Source of the DNA: Ectothiorhodospira lacustris
GTDB taxonomy: Bacteria > Pseudomonadota > Gammaproteobacteria > Ectothiorhodospirales > Ectothiorhodospiraceae
Assembly: GCF_022227845.1 (NCBI RefSeq)
Contig: NZ_JAJNQN010000008.1
Coordinates: forward strand, 62,001 to 126,000
Reading direction: 5' to 3'
DNA length: 64,000 nt
Shown: positions 8,719 to 23,338 of the stretch, one piece after another
Numbering within the stretch: the stretch's first letter is position 1
How the letters are laid out: each line of letters starts with the position of its first letter
Translations under genes and position numbers: made by a program
The notes under the pieces: model-generated
What the model was told of the DNA's origin: nothing
What the model saw: the letters and a program-made list of their open reading frames with translations, nothing else
The model's database searches: none

Positions 8719-8733
8719 GCTGCAATGCAACAT
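8719..8733 (+). promoter_or_regulatory. TGC-rich motif upstream of the fabI operon
   Basis: The 265-base gap between the divergent exported-protein gene and fabI contains GCTGCAATGCAACA about 55 bases before the fabI start. The same 14-mer with a single C/T difference lies in the phasin promoter (19860-19873, opposite strand), where a related copy also occurs (19890-19902). TGC-rich sites of this type are known targets of PHA regulators such as PhaR in other proteobacteria. Regulator binding is inference. A TTGACA at 8683 has no -10 at proper spacing, so the promoter itself was not located. Nothing else was seen in this gap. Confidence 0.45.
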
Positions 8734-8787: not shown

Positions 8788-9564
8788 ATGATGACTCAAC
8801 CCTTCTCCATGCAAGGGAAAACCGGCATCGTTACCGGCCTCGCCAATGCCGACAGCATTGCCTACGGCTGTGCCCGTGCGCTGCAGCAGGCGGGTGCCGA
8901 AATGATCGTGACCTATGGCCATCCCAAGGCCGAATCCCATGTCCGGCCCTTGGCCGGTGAGATGGGGGATCCGGAACTGATGCTTTGCGATGTGCTTGAC
9001 CAGACCCAAGTGGATGCACTGTTCCAGCGCGCCGCCGAACGTTGGGGCAAGCTGGATTTTCTGATCCATTCCATGGCCTTTGCGCCACGAGATGATCTCC
9101 ATGGTCGAGTGGTGGACTGCTCCTGGGACGGCTTTGCCCAGGCCATGAATGTTTCCTGTCACTCCTTCATTCGCCTGGCCCGACAGGCGGAACACCTGAT
9201 GAAGGCGGGCGGCACTCTGATCACCCTCTCCTATTACGGTGCCGAAAAGGTGGTGGACAACTACAACCTCATGGGGCCGGTCAAGGCCGCGTTGGAATCC
9301 AGTGTGCGCTACATGGCGGCGGAACTGGGTCCGCAAGGCATCCGGGTGCATGCCATCTCGCCGGGTCCCATCCGTACCCGGGCGGCCTCGGGTATTCAGG
9401 ATTTCGAAGATCTGGCCCGCGATGCCGAAACCCGTTCCCCCCTGCGTCGTCTGGCCACCATCGAGGATGTGGGGCAGAGTGCCGTTTTCCTGGCCTCAGG
9501 GGCCGGACAGTCACTGACCGGCAGCACCCTTTACGTGGATGCCGGACATAACATAAGGGCCTGA
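8788..9564 (+). CDS. fabI: Enoyl-[ACP] reductase (NADH), FabI family
   Basis: 258 residues, usual FabI length. The cofactor motif is GLANADSIAYG at 17-27 (the FabI-type glycine motif). The catalytic set is Tyr149 in SYYGAE, Tyr159 in NYN and Lys166, matching the E. coli residues. The ATG at 8788 was preferred over the TTG two codons earlier because GGAGG lies 6-7 bases before it. FabI reduces trans-2-enoyl-ACP and can act on enoyl-CoA. It starts an operon with a MaoC-Pta fusion 3 bases downstream and with ackA. The fab cluster at 33-36 kb has no enoyl reductase, so this could also be the housekeeping enzyme. Confidence 0.93.
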   Translation: MMTQPFSMQGKTGIVTGLANADSIAYGCARALQQAGAEMIVTYGHPKAESHVRPLAGEMGDPELMLCDVLDQTQVDALFQRAAERWGKLDFLIHSMAFAPRDDLHGRVVDCSWDGFAQAMNVSCHSFIRLARQAEHLMKAGGTLITLSYYGAEKVVDNYNLMGPVKAALESSVRYMAAELGPQGIRVHAISPGPIRTRAASGIQDFEDLARDAETRSPLRRLATIEDVGQSAVFLASGAGQSLTGSTLYVDAGHNIRA

Positions 9565-9567
9565 GTC

Positions 9568-10977
9568 ATGGATAAGAAAACCGATCTGGGTTACATCGAG
9601 AACCGCACTTTCGATGAGATTCGGGTGGGCGACGAGGCCTCTATCGAGCGCCGGCTCACCATGGATGACATCAAGCTATTCGCCATCATGTCCGGGGACG
9701 TGAACCCTGCCCATGTGGACGAGGATTTTGCCAAGAGTTCGCGCTTTCAGGAGATCATCGCTCATGGCATGTGGGGCGGAGCGCTCATCTCCACCGTGTT
9801 GGGCACCGAGTTGCCCGGCCCCGGGACCATCTATCTGGGGCAAACCCTGCGGTTTCGGGCCCCGGTAGGTCTGGGTGATGTCCTGCAGGTGAAGGTGAAG
9901 GTCCTGGAAAAGGACCCTGAAAAGAATCGCATCAAATTTGATTGTCGGTGTACCAATCAGGAAGGTCGGGATGTGATCGAGGGGGTGGCCGACGTGCTGG
10001 CGCCCACGGAAAAGATCCGCCGTGCCCGTACTGTGATGCCGCGGGTTCGCATGTCCGAGCGGGCGCGCCTGCATGAACTGTTGCATGCCGCCACCCATCC
10101 GGAGCCGGTCGACATGGCCGTGGTGCATCCGGTGGATGCACCTTCCATCCTGGGGGCCTATGAGTCTGCTAAGGCGGGTCTGATCCATCCGATTCTGATC
10201 GGTCCCGAGGACCGCATCCGGGCGGCGGCGGATGAGGCGGAGATCGACATCAGCGATTTTCGCATCATTCATGTCCCCCACAGCCATGCCGCGGCCGAAG
10301 AGGCGGTGGCCATGACCCGCGCCGGCACCGTGGGCGCCATCATGAAGGGGGCGCTGCATACCGATGAATTGCTGCGGGAGGTGGTGCGTAAGGATTCCGG
10401 CTTGCGGACCGAACGACGCATCAGCCATGTGATGGCCTTCGATGTACCGACCTATCCACGCCCCCTGTTCATCACCGACGCGGCCATCAACATCTATCCT
10501 TCTCTGGCCGACAAGATGGATATCGTGCAGAACGCCATCGAGTTGGCTCACGCGGTGGGTAATGAGCTGCCCAAGGTAGCCATTCTATCGGCGATGGAGA
10601 CGGTGAATCCCAAGATCCAGTCCACCCTGGAGGCGGCGGCCCTGTGCAAGATGGCGGATCGTGGGCAGATTACCGGCGCCTTGATTGATGGCCCGCTGGC
10701 CTTCGACAATGCCGTGTCCGAGGCGGCGGCTGCGACCAAAAACATCATCTCCCCCGTGGCCGGTCGGGCTGACATCCTGGTGGCACCGGATCTGGAAGCA
10801 GCCAACATGCTCATGAAGCAGTTGACCTACCTGGCGGATGCGACAGGGGCCGGCCTGGTGGTGGGAGCCCGGGTTCCCATCGTGCTCACCAGTCGGGCTG
10901 ATGATGCCATCACCCGCATGGCTTCCTGTGCCCTGGCATTGCTGCTGGCGGACTATCAGAAGAAGAAGGTTCGGTAA
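9568..10977 (+). CDS. Fusion of R-specific enoyl-CoA hydratase (MaoC/PhaJ) and phosphate acyltransferase
   Basis: 469 residues. Residues about 10-145 are a MaoC hot-dog domain with the PhaJ catalytic pair Asp44 and His49 in GDVNPAHVD, expected to interconvert enoyl-CoA and (R)-3-hydroxyacyl-CoA. Residues about 160-465 are a PTA_PTB domain, transferring acyl groups between CoA and phosphate. The fusion is a known family, often labelled bifunctional enoyl-CoA hydratase/phosphate acetyltransferase. It sits 3 bases after fabI and 3 bases before ackA, so the operon can convert an acyl-CoA to acyl phosphate and then to acid plus ATP. Chain-length preference (acetyl or butyryl) cannot be read here. 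Confidence 0.92.
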   Translation: MDKKTDLGYIENRTFDEIRVGDEASIERRLTMDDIKLFAIMSGDVNPAHVDEDFAKSSRFQEIIAHGMWGGALISTVLGTELPGPGTIYLGQTLRFRAPVGLGDVLQVKVKVLEKDPEKNRIKFDCRCTNQEGRDVIEGVADVLAPTEKIRRARTVMPRVRMSERARLHELLHAATHPEPVDMAVVHPVDAPSILGAYESAKAGLIHPILIGPEDRIRAAADEAEIDISDFRIIHVPHSHAAAEEAVAMTRAGTVGAIMKGALHTDELLREVVRKDSGLRTERRISHVMAFDVPTYPRPLFITDAAINIYPSLADKMDIVQNAIELAHAVGNELPKVAILSAMETVNPKIQSTLEAAALCKMADRGQITGALIDGPLAFDNAVSEAAAATKNIISPVAGRADILVAPDLEAANMLMKQLTYLADATGAGLVVGARVPIVLTSRADDAITRMASCALALLLADYQKKKVR

Positions 10978-10980
10978 GAA

Positions 10981-12174
10981 ATGGGCGATATCCTGGTCAT
11001 CAACAGCGGCTCATCCAGTCTCAAGTTCGCCCTGTTGGGCCAGGGGAAGGGCCTGTCACTGGATGCGCTTGCCGTCCATTATCAGGGACACTTCTCGGGG
11101 CTTGGGGGGCGGCAGGCCCGCCTGGTGATCCGGGATGGTCGCGGCCGGGCCATACGGGACGATCATCTGGTCGCCGAGGATGGGCGGTATGGCCACGCGG
11201 AGGCCCTGTCCGAGTTACTGGGCTGGATGGATGATGTTCCAGATTCCGGCCGGATCAGCGCCATTGGACATCGGATCGTCCATGGTGGGCGGCACTATCG
11301 CCGGCCCGCCCTGCTGGATGAAGGTGTCCTGACGGATCTGGAAGCCCTGATCCCTCTGGCACCGCTGCATCAGCCCCATGGCCTGGCGCCGGTTCGCAGT
11401 TTGTTTGCCCTGCGTCCGGACGTGCCCCAGGTGGCTTGCTTCGATACCAGTTTTCATACCACCCAGGCCGCGGTCGCCCAGGCCTTTGCCTTGCCCCGGC
11501 ATCTGACCGAGGCGGGTCTGATCCGCTATGGCTTCCATGGCCTGTCCTATGACTACATCAGCCGCCGCCTGCCGGAATATCTGGGCAGGCCGGAGACGGG
11601 CAGGGTGGTGGCGGCGCATCTTGGCAACGGCGCCAGCCTGTGTGCGATGCGTGATGGGGCCAGTGTGGCGTCCACCATGGGTTTCACCGCGCTGGACGGG
11701 TTGCCCATGGGAACCCGCTGCGGGACTATTGACCCCGGCGTGGTCCTGCATCTGCTGACCCATGAAAACATGACCCCCGAACAAGTGAGCGATCTTCTGT
11801 ACAAAAAATCAGGACTTTTTGGGGTTTCAGGTATCAGCGCGGACATGCGTGATCTGATCGATAATCAGACACCTTCGGCCAGGGAGGCGGTGGAACTGTT
11901 TACCTACCGCATTATCCGAGAACTCGGCAGTCACGCCGCCGCCTTGGGAGGGCTGGATCATCTGGTCTTCACGGCGGGTATCGGCGAACATGCCGCGCCG
12001 GTGCGCGCCATGGTGTGCAGAGGTTGCGAATGGTTGGGTGTTCGCCTTGATGAAGGACGCAATGAACAGGGAGAATTGTGCATCAGTACGGATGACAGTC
12101 CTGTGAAGGTCTGGGTGATTCCCACCGATGAAGAGCGCATGATCGCCTGGCATACCGCCCGTTGCTGTCCTTGA
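10981..12174 (+). CDS. ackA: Acetate kinase
   Basis: 397 residues, normal length for AckA. The N-terminal ASKHA motif ILVINSGSSSLKF, the central GFHGLSYDYIS and AHLGNGASLCA, and the C-terminal FTAGIGEHA are diagnostic. It makes acetate (or propionate/short acyl) and ATP from the acyl phosphate produced by the upstream phosphate acyltransferase, or runs in reverse to activate acetate. It is the last gene of the fabI operon, 3 bases after the fusion gene. The GS-SSLKF form is typical of acetate rather than butyrate kinases. Confidence 0.96.
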   Translation: MGDILVINSGSSSLKFALLGQGKGLSLDALAVHYQGHFSGLGGRQARLVIRDGRGRAIRDDHLVAEDGRYGHAEALSELLGWMDDVPDSGRISAIGHRIVHGGRHYRRPALLDEGVLTDLEALIPLAPLHQPHGLAPVRSLFALRPDVPQVACFDTSFHTTQAAVAQAFALPRHLTEAGLIRYGFHGLSYDYISRRLPEYLGRPETGRVVAAHLGNGASLCAMRDGASVASTMGFTALDGLPMGTRCGTIDPGVVLHLLTHENMTPEQVSDLLYKKSGLFGVSGISADMRDLIDNQTPSAREAVELFTYRIIRELGSHAAALGGLDHLVFTAGIGEHAAPVRAMVCRGCEWLGVRLDEGRNEQGELCISTDDSPVKVWVIPTDEERMIAWHTARCCP

Positions 12175-12313: not shown

Positions 12314-12520
12314 ATGAGCGTTTACAAGGTCATTGAACTGATCGGAACCAGCGAAAAGTCATGGGAAGATGCCGCCGCCCAGGCTGTGGCCAAGGCCCGC
12401 TCCAGCCTGCGTGAACTGCGTATTGTCGAAGTCAAAAAGTTGGACATGAAACTGGACGAGACCGGTGACATCGTGTGTTACCGAGCCCGGTTGAACGTGT
12501 CGTTCAAATACGAAGATTAG
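12314..12520 (+). CDS. Dodecin, flavin-storage protein
   Basis: 68 residues, the size of bacterial dodecins, which form hollow dodecamers that store or buffer flavins. The sequence has the beta-alpha-beta-beta layout: SVYKVIELIGTSEKSW, a helix of AAAQAVAKARSSL, then RIVEVKKLD and CYRARLNVSFKYE. The tryptophan in the first turn is a position that stacks on the flavin. The ATG at 12314 was chosen over an in-frame upstream ATG at 12254 because it has GAGGAG upstream and the protein begins exactly as in the family. Dodecin of Halorhodospira halophila, a related alkaliphile type, is a structural reference. Confidence 0.93.
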   Translation: MSVYKVIELIGTSEKSWEDAAAQAVAKARSSLRELRIVEVKKLDMKLDETGDIVCYRARLNVSFKYED

Positions 12521-19438: not shown

Positions 19439-19813
19439 TCAGGCGCTTTTACGAGCCTTGGCAGGGTCGATACTGGTGACGGTGGCCAAGCCTTCTTCGC
19501 TCAGTTTCTGTACTTCTTCGGCATAACCGCGCTGCAGCTCCACCAGTTCGTTGGCGTCCTTGGCGACCTTTTCGCCCAGGGACTTGGTGGCCTCGGCCTG
19601 GGCACCCACATAGGCCTGCAGGCTCTTGGGATCGGTCACGGTCTGCAGCGCACGCATCTGCTCGATGGAAATCTCGGAGTAGCTGCGGAACATGCTGATC
19701 TGGTATTCCACCAGCTTGGACACATAGTCAAGGGTGGCATTATTGAATTTGCGCACCGGAGCAGCCATCTTGTCGAACTGTTCCTGGGAGGTGTTGAAGA
19801 ATTCGTTGTACAT
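19439..19813 (-). CDS. phaP: Phasin (PHA granule-associated protein)
   Basis: 124 residues, almost all amphipathic helix without cysteine. The sequence (YNEFFNTSQEQFDKM, then VEYQISMFRSYSEISIEQM) is of the phasin type: small proteins that coat polyhydroxyalkanoate granules. GGAG lies just before the ATG at 19813. A longer in-frame start at 19924 would run through the promoter and was rejected. It is monocistronic, with its own terminator. No PHA synthase or depolymerase lies in the window. The promoter carries TGC-rich motifs also found before fabI. Confidence 0.88.
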   Translation of the reverse strand: MYNEFFNTSQEQFDKMAAPVRKFNNATLDYVSKLVEYQISMFRSYSEISIEQMRALQTVTDPKSLQAYVGAQAEATKSLGEKVAKDANELVELQRGYAEEVQKLSEEGLATVTSIDPAKARKSA

Positions 19814-19859: not shown

Positions 19860-19902
19860 TGTTGCGTTGCAGCATATCGCATCCTTTTGTGCGGTGCAAC
19901 AT
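19860..19902 (-). promoter_or_regulatory. Phasin promoter overlapped by two TGC-rich motifs
   Basis: On the minus strand, TTGCAC (19899-19894) and TATGCT (19876-19871) form a -35/-10 pair with exactly 17 bases between them, about 60 bases before the phasin start. The -10 overlaps GCTGCAACGCAACA (19873-19860) and the -35 overlaps TGCGGTGCAACAT read on the plus strand (19890-19902). A repressor binding these motifs would cover both boxes. The site is similar to one before fabI (8719). Confidence 0.65.

Positions 19903-20840: not shown

Positions 20841-20842
<2 letters not shown>
20795..20842. repeat. CCCTTCTCCCC-type hairpin repeat
   Basis: CCCTTCTCCCC (20798-20808) pairs with GGGGAGAAGGG (20813-20823) across CTGG, followed by GCAGGGGACGAGGGGCC. 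The same element, larger, occurs at 43401-43500. It lies between the convergent DJ-1 and maeB genes and may serve as a bidirectional stop. Such hairpins are common mobile-looking palindromes in proteobacteria. Confidence 0.7.
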
Positions 20843-23153
<2,311 letters not shown>

Positions 23154-23338
23154 GGGTGCGATGGATCTCCGGGTACGGGTCTTGGAATCGGAAAGCGGAC
23201 CATTATCCGACTTTATTGCTGTGGTCGCACCCGATATGACCGTTTTCCAAGCTGTCTGGTGTCGGAATCGAAAATTGTTTGTGACATCGGCAACAGGCTG
23301 CAACCGGAGGGGAATCGGTACTGAGTCCCGTTATTTAA

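Follow-up and report, generated by a model that had tools for sequence, protein, structure and literature searches.

A fabI, hydratase–acyltransferase and kinase operon tied to polyhydroxyalkanoate genes in Ectothiorhodospira lacustris, and a possible reductive, ATP-yielding acid branch

The stretch of Ectothiorhodospira lacustris DNA analysed here (the window) is 64 kb long and forms part of a 131-kb contig in a genome of 3.28 Mb and 49 contigs. At 8788-12174 on the plus strand it carries an operon whose products could together lead from a 3-hydroxyacyl-coenzyme A (CoA) to a free acid and ATP. We put the chances at about even that this operon encodes a branch linked to polyhydroxyalkanoate (PHA) that consumes reductant, yields ATP and forms a C4 or C5 acid, with butyrate as the likely product. 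The observations behind this proposal are the genes themselves, a dedicated FabI paralogue that has lost the charge for docking acyl carrier protein (ACP), the co-occurrence and co-location of the genes with those of PHA synthesis, and PhaR-like promoter boxes. The cluster is not new as such and already carries annotation, and its gene order has been published under a different reading.

The operon consists of three plus-strand open reading frames (ORFs) with 3 bases between neighbours, the layout that an earlier reading made from the letters alone (the sequence-only reading) had described. The first ORF, at 8788-9564, encodes a FabI-like enoyl-thioester reductase (PRK07533, 391 bits against a cut-off of 337), a paralogue of what we call the operon type and predicted to be an enoyl-CoA reductase. 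Its frame could open at TTG 8782 or at ATG 8788; GGAGG precedes the ATG, which makes 8788, the start given in the sequence-only reading, the better choice. The second ORF, at 9568-10977, joins a PhaJ-like hydratase to a phosphate acyltransferase and has both MaoC and PTA_PTB domains. The MaoC/PhaJ-like (R)-specific enoyl-CoA hydratase domain spans approximately 9568-10044 (MaoC_dehydratas, 76.6 bits) and the phosphate-butyryltransferase-like acyltransferase domain approximately 10072-10950 (7vg9, 251 bits). The third ORF, at 10981-12174, encodes an acyl kinase of the acetate kinase family (TIGR00016, 359.3 bits). The organism is a purple sulfur bacterium, and its fusion protein is 96% identical to those of two Ectothiorhodospira shaposhnikovii strains, the nearest named relatives.

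In the proposed pathway, the MaoC/PhaJ domain would dehydrate (R)-3-hydroxybutyryl-CoA, or its C5 homologue, to crotonyl-CoA, the operon-type FabI would reduce crotonyl-CoA to butyryl-CoA, the Ptb-like domain would convert butyryl-CoA to butyryl phosphate, and the kinase would turn butyryl phosphate into butyrate and ATP. Counted from two acetyl-CoA, the route would gain one ATP and use two NAD(P)H. Reduction of crotonyl-CoA is a strongly favourable step, and the presence of FabI should therefore drive the set towards the acid. We infer the substrates, the direction of flux, the cofactor and the product. A wider proposal, which we hold more tentatively and rate somewhat short of an even chance, is that the operon may represent a recurrent, PHA-tied and PhaR-controlled proteobacterial pathway from 3-hydroxyacyl-CoA to butyrate or valerate plus ATP, in which a FabI paralogue switched from ACP to CoA would replace butyryl-CoA dehydrogenase and Etf and which would serve as a fermentative, redox-balancing outlet for PHA stores.

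Association with PHA synthesis genes

The genome holds in one cluster phaC and phaE of a class III PHA synthase, a thiolase gene in the phaA place, phaR, a phasin gene and phaB. A class I or II synthase was also sought and dropped as a candidate, as PhaC_N had no match at E<=0.001 in the genome; the class III synthase is present instead. We then surveyed 369 gammaproteobacterial genomes, taking E<=1e-20 for a PhaC homologue, E<=1e-78 for operon-type FabI, and a match with query start <=10 and end >=455 for a full fusion. The comparison with PHA synthase, which the sequence-only reading had suggested, revealed PhaC in 18 of the 19 genomes with a full fusion against 88/350 of the others (Fisher two-sided p = 8.5e-10, in a test that ignores kinship), the background being 106/369. 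The association covers 16 families and thus is not that of one lineage; the sole exception without PhaC is G141. Two more genomes with PhaC, G163 and G342, carry the fusion in broken frames and were kept outside the 19. Where the PTA domain was the only match over the cut-off, PhaC occurred at the background rate (6/21), so the PHA link belongs to the fusion. Operon-type FabI was found in 17 of the 369 genomes, all 17 with PhaC (against 89/352 of the others). A full fusion accompanies it in 11/17, against 8/352 of the others, and a broken-frame fusion in two more, while G127, G128, G244 and G363 have this FabI without the fusion. The link to PHA is strong. In G244, which has PhaC and lacks a full fusion, the operon-type FabI gene stands beside three MaoC-domain genes (G244:C160:3328-5488).

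The genes also lie together. We read the surroundings of the fusion in 80 named loci, the best 80 of 556 relatives, which favour close relatives and several of which end at contig ends; the neighbouring genes were named by tblastn. FabI is present in 42 of these loci, the kinase in 69 and a PhaC match in 28, of which 22 also have FabI. Two of the 28 PhaC matches are weak (L098 and L110), and in 24/80 loci a PhaC match of more than 150 bits lies on the same strand as the fusion. The order is PhaC-FabI-PhaA-PhaB-fusion and then the contig end in L103, PhaC-FabI-PhaA-fusion-kinase in L120, PhaC-FabI-PhaB-fusion-kinase in L077, and PhaC-fusion-kinase-FabI with a convergent phaB in G065. In G031 (L037:3775-8868), which has neither a PhaR match nor an operon-type FabI, genes for a phasin and a class I PhaC are divergent from those for the fusion and the kinase. 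The GYC[LI]GG box was found in all nine neighbouring PhaCs that were read.

The operon-type FabI

The operon FabI is a dedicated, non-housekeeping paralogue in this genome. A second, ordinary FabI is encoded at G000:C1:83603-84352 and is 42% identical to it, and in a tree of 74 FabI sequences a branch with full support (100/100) separates the 47 operon-type proteins from the others. These counts leave out second readings of L065 and L069, L002 (the L008 gene again) and E. coli FabI, which served as the numbering ruler. Across 40 genomes, those of the organism and of relatives, operon-type FabI (at least 64% identity) occurs in 11 of 12 with a full fusion, the twelfth being G031, and in 0/28 without one. 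In G013 it lies 416 kb away from the fusion, so there the pair is kept without linkage.

Tyr156 and Lys163, which we take to be the catalytic residues of FabI, are retained in 47/47 operon-type proteins, and Tyr146 is Phe in six. With these two residues and its PRK07533 score the window protein belongs to FabI, and it lacks the basic residue at position 204 of an enoyl-ACP reductase, having Glu at the R204 position and Asp at the K205 position (E. coli numbering). R204 of E. coli FabI is presumably a basic ACP-docking residue; Rafi in 2006 reportedly described a basic residue 204 as docking ACP in this enzyme. In the first set of sequences, whose ordinary FabIs are gammaproteobacterial, position 204 is D/E in 47/47 operon-type proteins and R/K in 25/26 ordinary ones. 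A second set of 34 more FabIs came from alpha-, beta- and gammaproteobacterial genomes carrying the fusion, and here position 204 is Arg in 28/29 ordinary proteins (one Gly) and Asp in five operon-type copies encoded on contigs other than that of the fusion. Overall, the acidic residue is found in 52/52 operon-type FabIs versus a basic one in 53/55 ordinary FabIs. Position 201, which we likewise assume to dock ACP, is uninformative, varying even among ordinary FabIs (Gly in 22/26). The operon-type FabI is predicted to act on CoA and not on ACP, a claim that can be tested directly through the reversed charge at position 204.

The simpler view weighed in the sequence-only reading, acetyl-CoA overflow plus a housekeeping FabI, is half excluded by these results: the second FabI in the genome, the separate clade of the operon type and the reversed charge at position 204 argue against a housekeeping FabI, while acetate may still be the product. 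In some other genomes, such as those of L049, L058, L066 and L068, operon-type FabI is the only FabI match at E<=1e-35, and there it could also serve fatty acid synthesis unless another kind of reductase does so. Remnants of FabI are present in the loci L047 and L110. In L047 (Allochromatium humboldtianum), only the last ~55 FabI residues survive, in a short ORF that precedes the fusion (L047:5598-5984), and the genome gave no match to operon-type FabI at E<=1e-35; this is a decayed fabI.

Acyltransferase, kinase and the acid formed

The fusion belongs to a widespread named family, whose model it matches with 745.9 bits (cut-off 282); a relative (E<=1e-5) occurs in 515 plasmid records, and in 69 it spans at least 80% of the fusion. 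PTA-only proteins pass the family cut-off too, and both the MaoC and the PTA_PTB domain were hence demanded. The best PDB match of the hydratase part is 5cpg, an (R)-specific enoyl-CoA hydratase (142 bits). D44, N46, P47 and H49 are invariant across six aligned fusions, which gives them the Asp and His of PhaJ within D-x-N-P-x-H, a motif that we take to be that of this (R)-specific enoyl-CoA hydratase. The PTA domain scores 251 bits against the phosphate butyryltransferase 7vg9 versus 44.8 bits against the best phosphate acetyltransferase. It falls below the cut-offs of both TIGR02706 (phosphate butyryltransferase; 319.9 bits, cut-off 410.5) and TIGR00651 (pta; 63.5 bits, cut-off 311.2), and passes that of PRK11890, a subfamily model named 'phosphate acetyltransferase' (466.1, cut-off 413). 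The domain is much nearer to phosphate butyryltransferase than to Pta. Two genomes have two full-length fusion genes each, G065 (C1 and C13) and G090 (C7 and C10), and G065 also has two operon-type FabIs.

The findings that weigh against a C4 or C5 acid branch start with the kinase, its weak step. By its sequence this enzyme belongs to the acetate kinase family (TIGR00016 cut-off 293.4); it reaches 42.8 bits with the butyrate kinase model TIGR02707, below the cut-off of 289.1, vs 359 with ackA. We compared 73 distinct kinases, counting the window's own once. R91, D150, H182 and R243 are conserved in 73/73 and H123 in 71, and the window kinase retains the catalytic residues. It also retains V93, as do all 73 operon kinases; in Salmonella typhimurium, AckA did not use butyrate, and modelling blames V93 and A181 for this (PMC3475010). 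Ala replaces Pro234 (E. coli numbering) in the window kinase and in 68/73 overall. This replacement, and the pocket as a whole, were considered as a sign of butyrate and dropped, as the kinases of G017 and G019, two of six from fusion-less genomes, have the same residues Q124, L184, Y186 and A234, and that of G019 is encoded near a gene for sulfoacetaldehyde acetyltransferase (Xsc). The product of the latter enzyme is acetyl phosphate. The genome itself has no other AckA, the operon kinase being its only PF00871 match, and no free-standing Pta, its PTA proteins beyond the fusion being a malic-enzyme fusion only. Acetate made by Pta and AckA would therefore have to use the operon kinase, and acetate could be the product. 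The malic-enzyme fusion, whose partner is a PTA domain, is encoded in the window at 20841-23303 on the minus strand; apart from it and the operon fusion, the genome has no PTA-family match.

The reductase and the synthase add to this side of the balance. FabI is missing from 38/80 named loci with the fusion, some of which end at contig ends, and operon-type FabI from 6/30 whole genomes with the fusion and, at E<=1e-78, from 8/19 gammaproteobacterial fusion genomes. The four-step set put forward in the sequence-only reading is thus not universal. Position 40 is Gln, presumably a mark of NADH-type FabI, in 26/26 ordinary FabIs, and operon-type proteins mostly have Gly, Leu or Ala there, which makes the use of NADH uncertain. 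The PhaC encoded next to the G065 fusion scores below the class I cut-off (488.7 vs 622.65), and its activity is therefore not certain. In favour of the proposal, engineered cells can run a route of this kind with E. coli FabI, which is able to use enoyl-CoAs (PMC9118988). As that ordinary enzyme serves CoA esters although it has R204, loss of the charge speaks against ACP use rather than for CoA use. On balance, the route from hydroxyacyl-CoA to acid plus ATP that the sequence-only reading had outlined gains from the dedicated FabI, the Ptb-like PTA domain, the PHA association and the PhaR-like boxes, and loses at the kinase.

Among the alternatives, the one that survives best is unlikely in our estimate, though far from negligible. 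The PTA domain and kinase would handle acetyl-CoA or propionyl-CoA, either in overflow or in the uptake of acetate or propionate into PHA, and the hydratase and FabI would have a separate role in PHA or fatty acid metabolism. Such a node fits the acetate kinase family of the kinase, its pocket residues shared with fusion-less G017 and G019 (the latter near an Xsc gene) and the genome without other AckA or free-standing Pta. It also agrees with the preference of S. typhimurium AckA for acetate (PMC3475010), with the view of the Cobetia authors that AckA and Pta turn propionate into propionyl-CoA (PMC8686332), and with S. meliloti pta, ackA and fabI being named as energy metabolism (PMC5789663). 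However, the PTA domain is Ptb-like, the fusion–PhaC association extends across 16 families, and the node has no role for the fused hydratase or the co-travelling FabI. Considerably less probable is that the hydratase works in reverse, from enoyl-CoA to (R)-3-hydroxyacyl-CoA for PHA, with the kinase and transferase activating free acids; a PhaJ-type domain does adjoin phaC in many genomes, but the FabI step would drain enoyl-CoA, yet FabI is present in 22/28 named loci with PhaC. That the operon sets acetyl phosphate levels controlling PHA synthase or response regulators, as proposed for Herbaspirillum phaC2-pta-ackA (PMC8222739), is very improbable, as it leaves the hydratase and FabI without a role.

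Promoter boxes and related gene clusters

A nearby phasin gene carrying the same motif as the operon had been pointed out in the sequence-only reading; taking the motif as TGC-N3-GCA, we found it both before fabI and before the phasin gene. The box upstream of fabI, CTGCAATGCAACA (8720-8732, plus strand), fits the PhaR box NGCN3GC[GA]N3, of which TGCGACGCACAA and TGCGTTGCACTA are the Bradyrhizobium diazoefficiens phaP1 examples (PMC10888616). The phasin gene, at 19439-19813 on the minus strand, lies outside the transcription unit of the operon and is linked to it by the promoter motif. Its product scores above the cut-off for Phasin_2 (46.8 bits) and reaches 65.7 bits with TIGR02809, whose cut-off is 65.85. 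Upstream of it lie the PhaR-like boxes TGCAACGCAACA (19860-19871) and TGCACCGCACAA (19887-19898), both on the minus strand. The fabI box belongs to the part of the upstream alignment that is conserved best, and it is present in 9/9 same-genus operon loci with that of the window included. A PhaR gene is present in the genome (140.7 bits) together with the promoter box, as in a PhaR regulon, and the organism's own pha cluster has further PhaR-like boxes between phaE and phaA and close to the phasin gene. In G013, G023 and G031, the 400 bases that precede the first gene contain no PhaR-like box.

The bare pattern was rejected as statistical evidence. CTGCN3GCA was found 22 times against 15.9 expected, and TGCRNYGCASMA with one mismatch 24 times against 22.6 expected, neither being enriched in the window; bare TGCN3GCA occurs 36 times in the 64-kb window and six times in 11 kb of the own pha cluster, which is the same density. 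As the pattern is no commoner than chance, only position and conservation support the boxes. We infer PhaR control of the operon in this organism, with the boxes as candidate sites, and PhaR would derepress the operon when PHA or PHA oligomers are present. In B. diazoefficiens, blr3456-blr3459, which include pta and ackA, are up in a phaR mutant (PMC10888616). An FNR-like site was not found in the window operon promoter with up to two mismatches. Only three of eleven loci scanned, L009 (459), L011 (490) and L012 (490), all of the same genus, have an FNR/Anr-like site with one mismatch, TTGATNNNNGTCAA, upstream of fabI, which hints at anoxic control there.

An orfA-pta-ackA-fabI operon of Sinorhizobium meliloti was reportedly described by Summers in 1999. 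Like the window operon it has pta, ackA and fabI together, in a gene order that we take to be different. The control differs from that by PhaR as well, the S. meliloti genes answering to phosphate starvation (PMC5789663). B. diazoefficiens blr3456-blr3459, likened here by description, resembles the window in that pta and ackA share a predicted operon that has PhaR boxes, whereas its authors' reading is a conversion of acetyl-CoA to acetate plus ATP (PMC10888616). The phaC1-fabI-bi-pta-ackA set of Cobetia marina and Halomonas sp. SF2003 has the same genes by name and phaC1 alongside, whereas the Ectothiorhodospira operon has no adjoining phaC; the available part of that paper discusses acetate/propionate activation and no reductive acid branch (PMC8686332). 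Published clusters also include Herbaspirillum phaC2 with pta-ackA (PMC8222739) and those of rhizobia and Burkholderia (PMC5789663); Defluviicoccus pta and ackA, which are not used as evidence here, were interpreted as acetate uptake (PMC9041414). Earlier readings of pta-ackA-fabI clusters by PHA genes, as given in these texts, are thus acetate/propionate metabolism or acetyl phosphate signalling. In a search of mainly open-access literature by titles and abstract starts, no title proposed a PHA-linked butyrate branch by such an operon, which is weak evidence of novelty.

Clostridia form butyrate by Crt, Bcd-Etf, Ptb and Buk, leading from 3-hydroxybutyryl-CoA to butyrate plus ATP. The chemistry proposed for the window operon is the same, but with an (R)-specific hydratase, a FabI-type reductase and a kinase of the acetate kinase family. 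Engineered reverse beta-oxidation (PhaB, PhaJ, and Ter or FabI) employs enzymes of the same types, and in the same order, as far as the acyl-CoA; unlike the operon, it is man-made, and most of its tabulated acid examples finish with a thioesterase (PMC9118988). Should the FabI use CoA esters and the transferase butyryl-CoA, PHA bacteria could ferment their storage precursors with a gain of ATP and without Bcd/Etf. Models of anoxic PHA use in phototrophs and halophiles, and perhaps in rhizobia, would then change, and a natural FabI-PhaJ-Ptb set would be at hand for butyrate production.

Downstream of the operon, a dodecin gene lies at 12314-12520 on the plus strand, 139 bases after the kinase gene. 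A dodecin gene also adjoins the operon in L041, L042 and, reversed, in L045.

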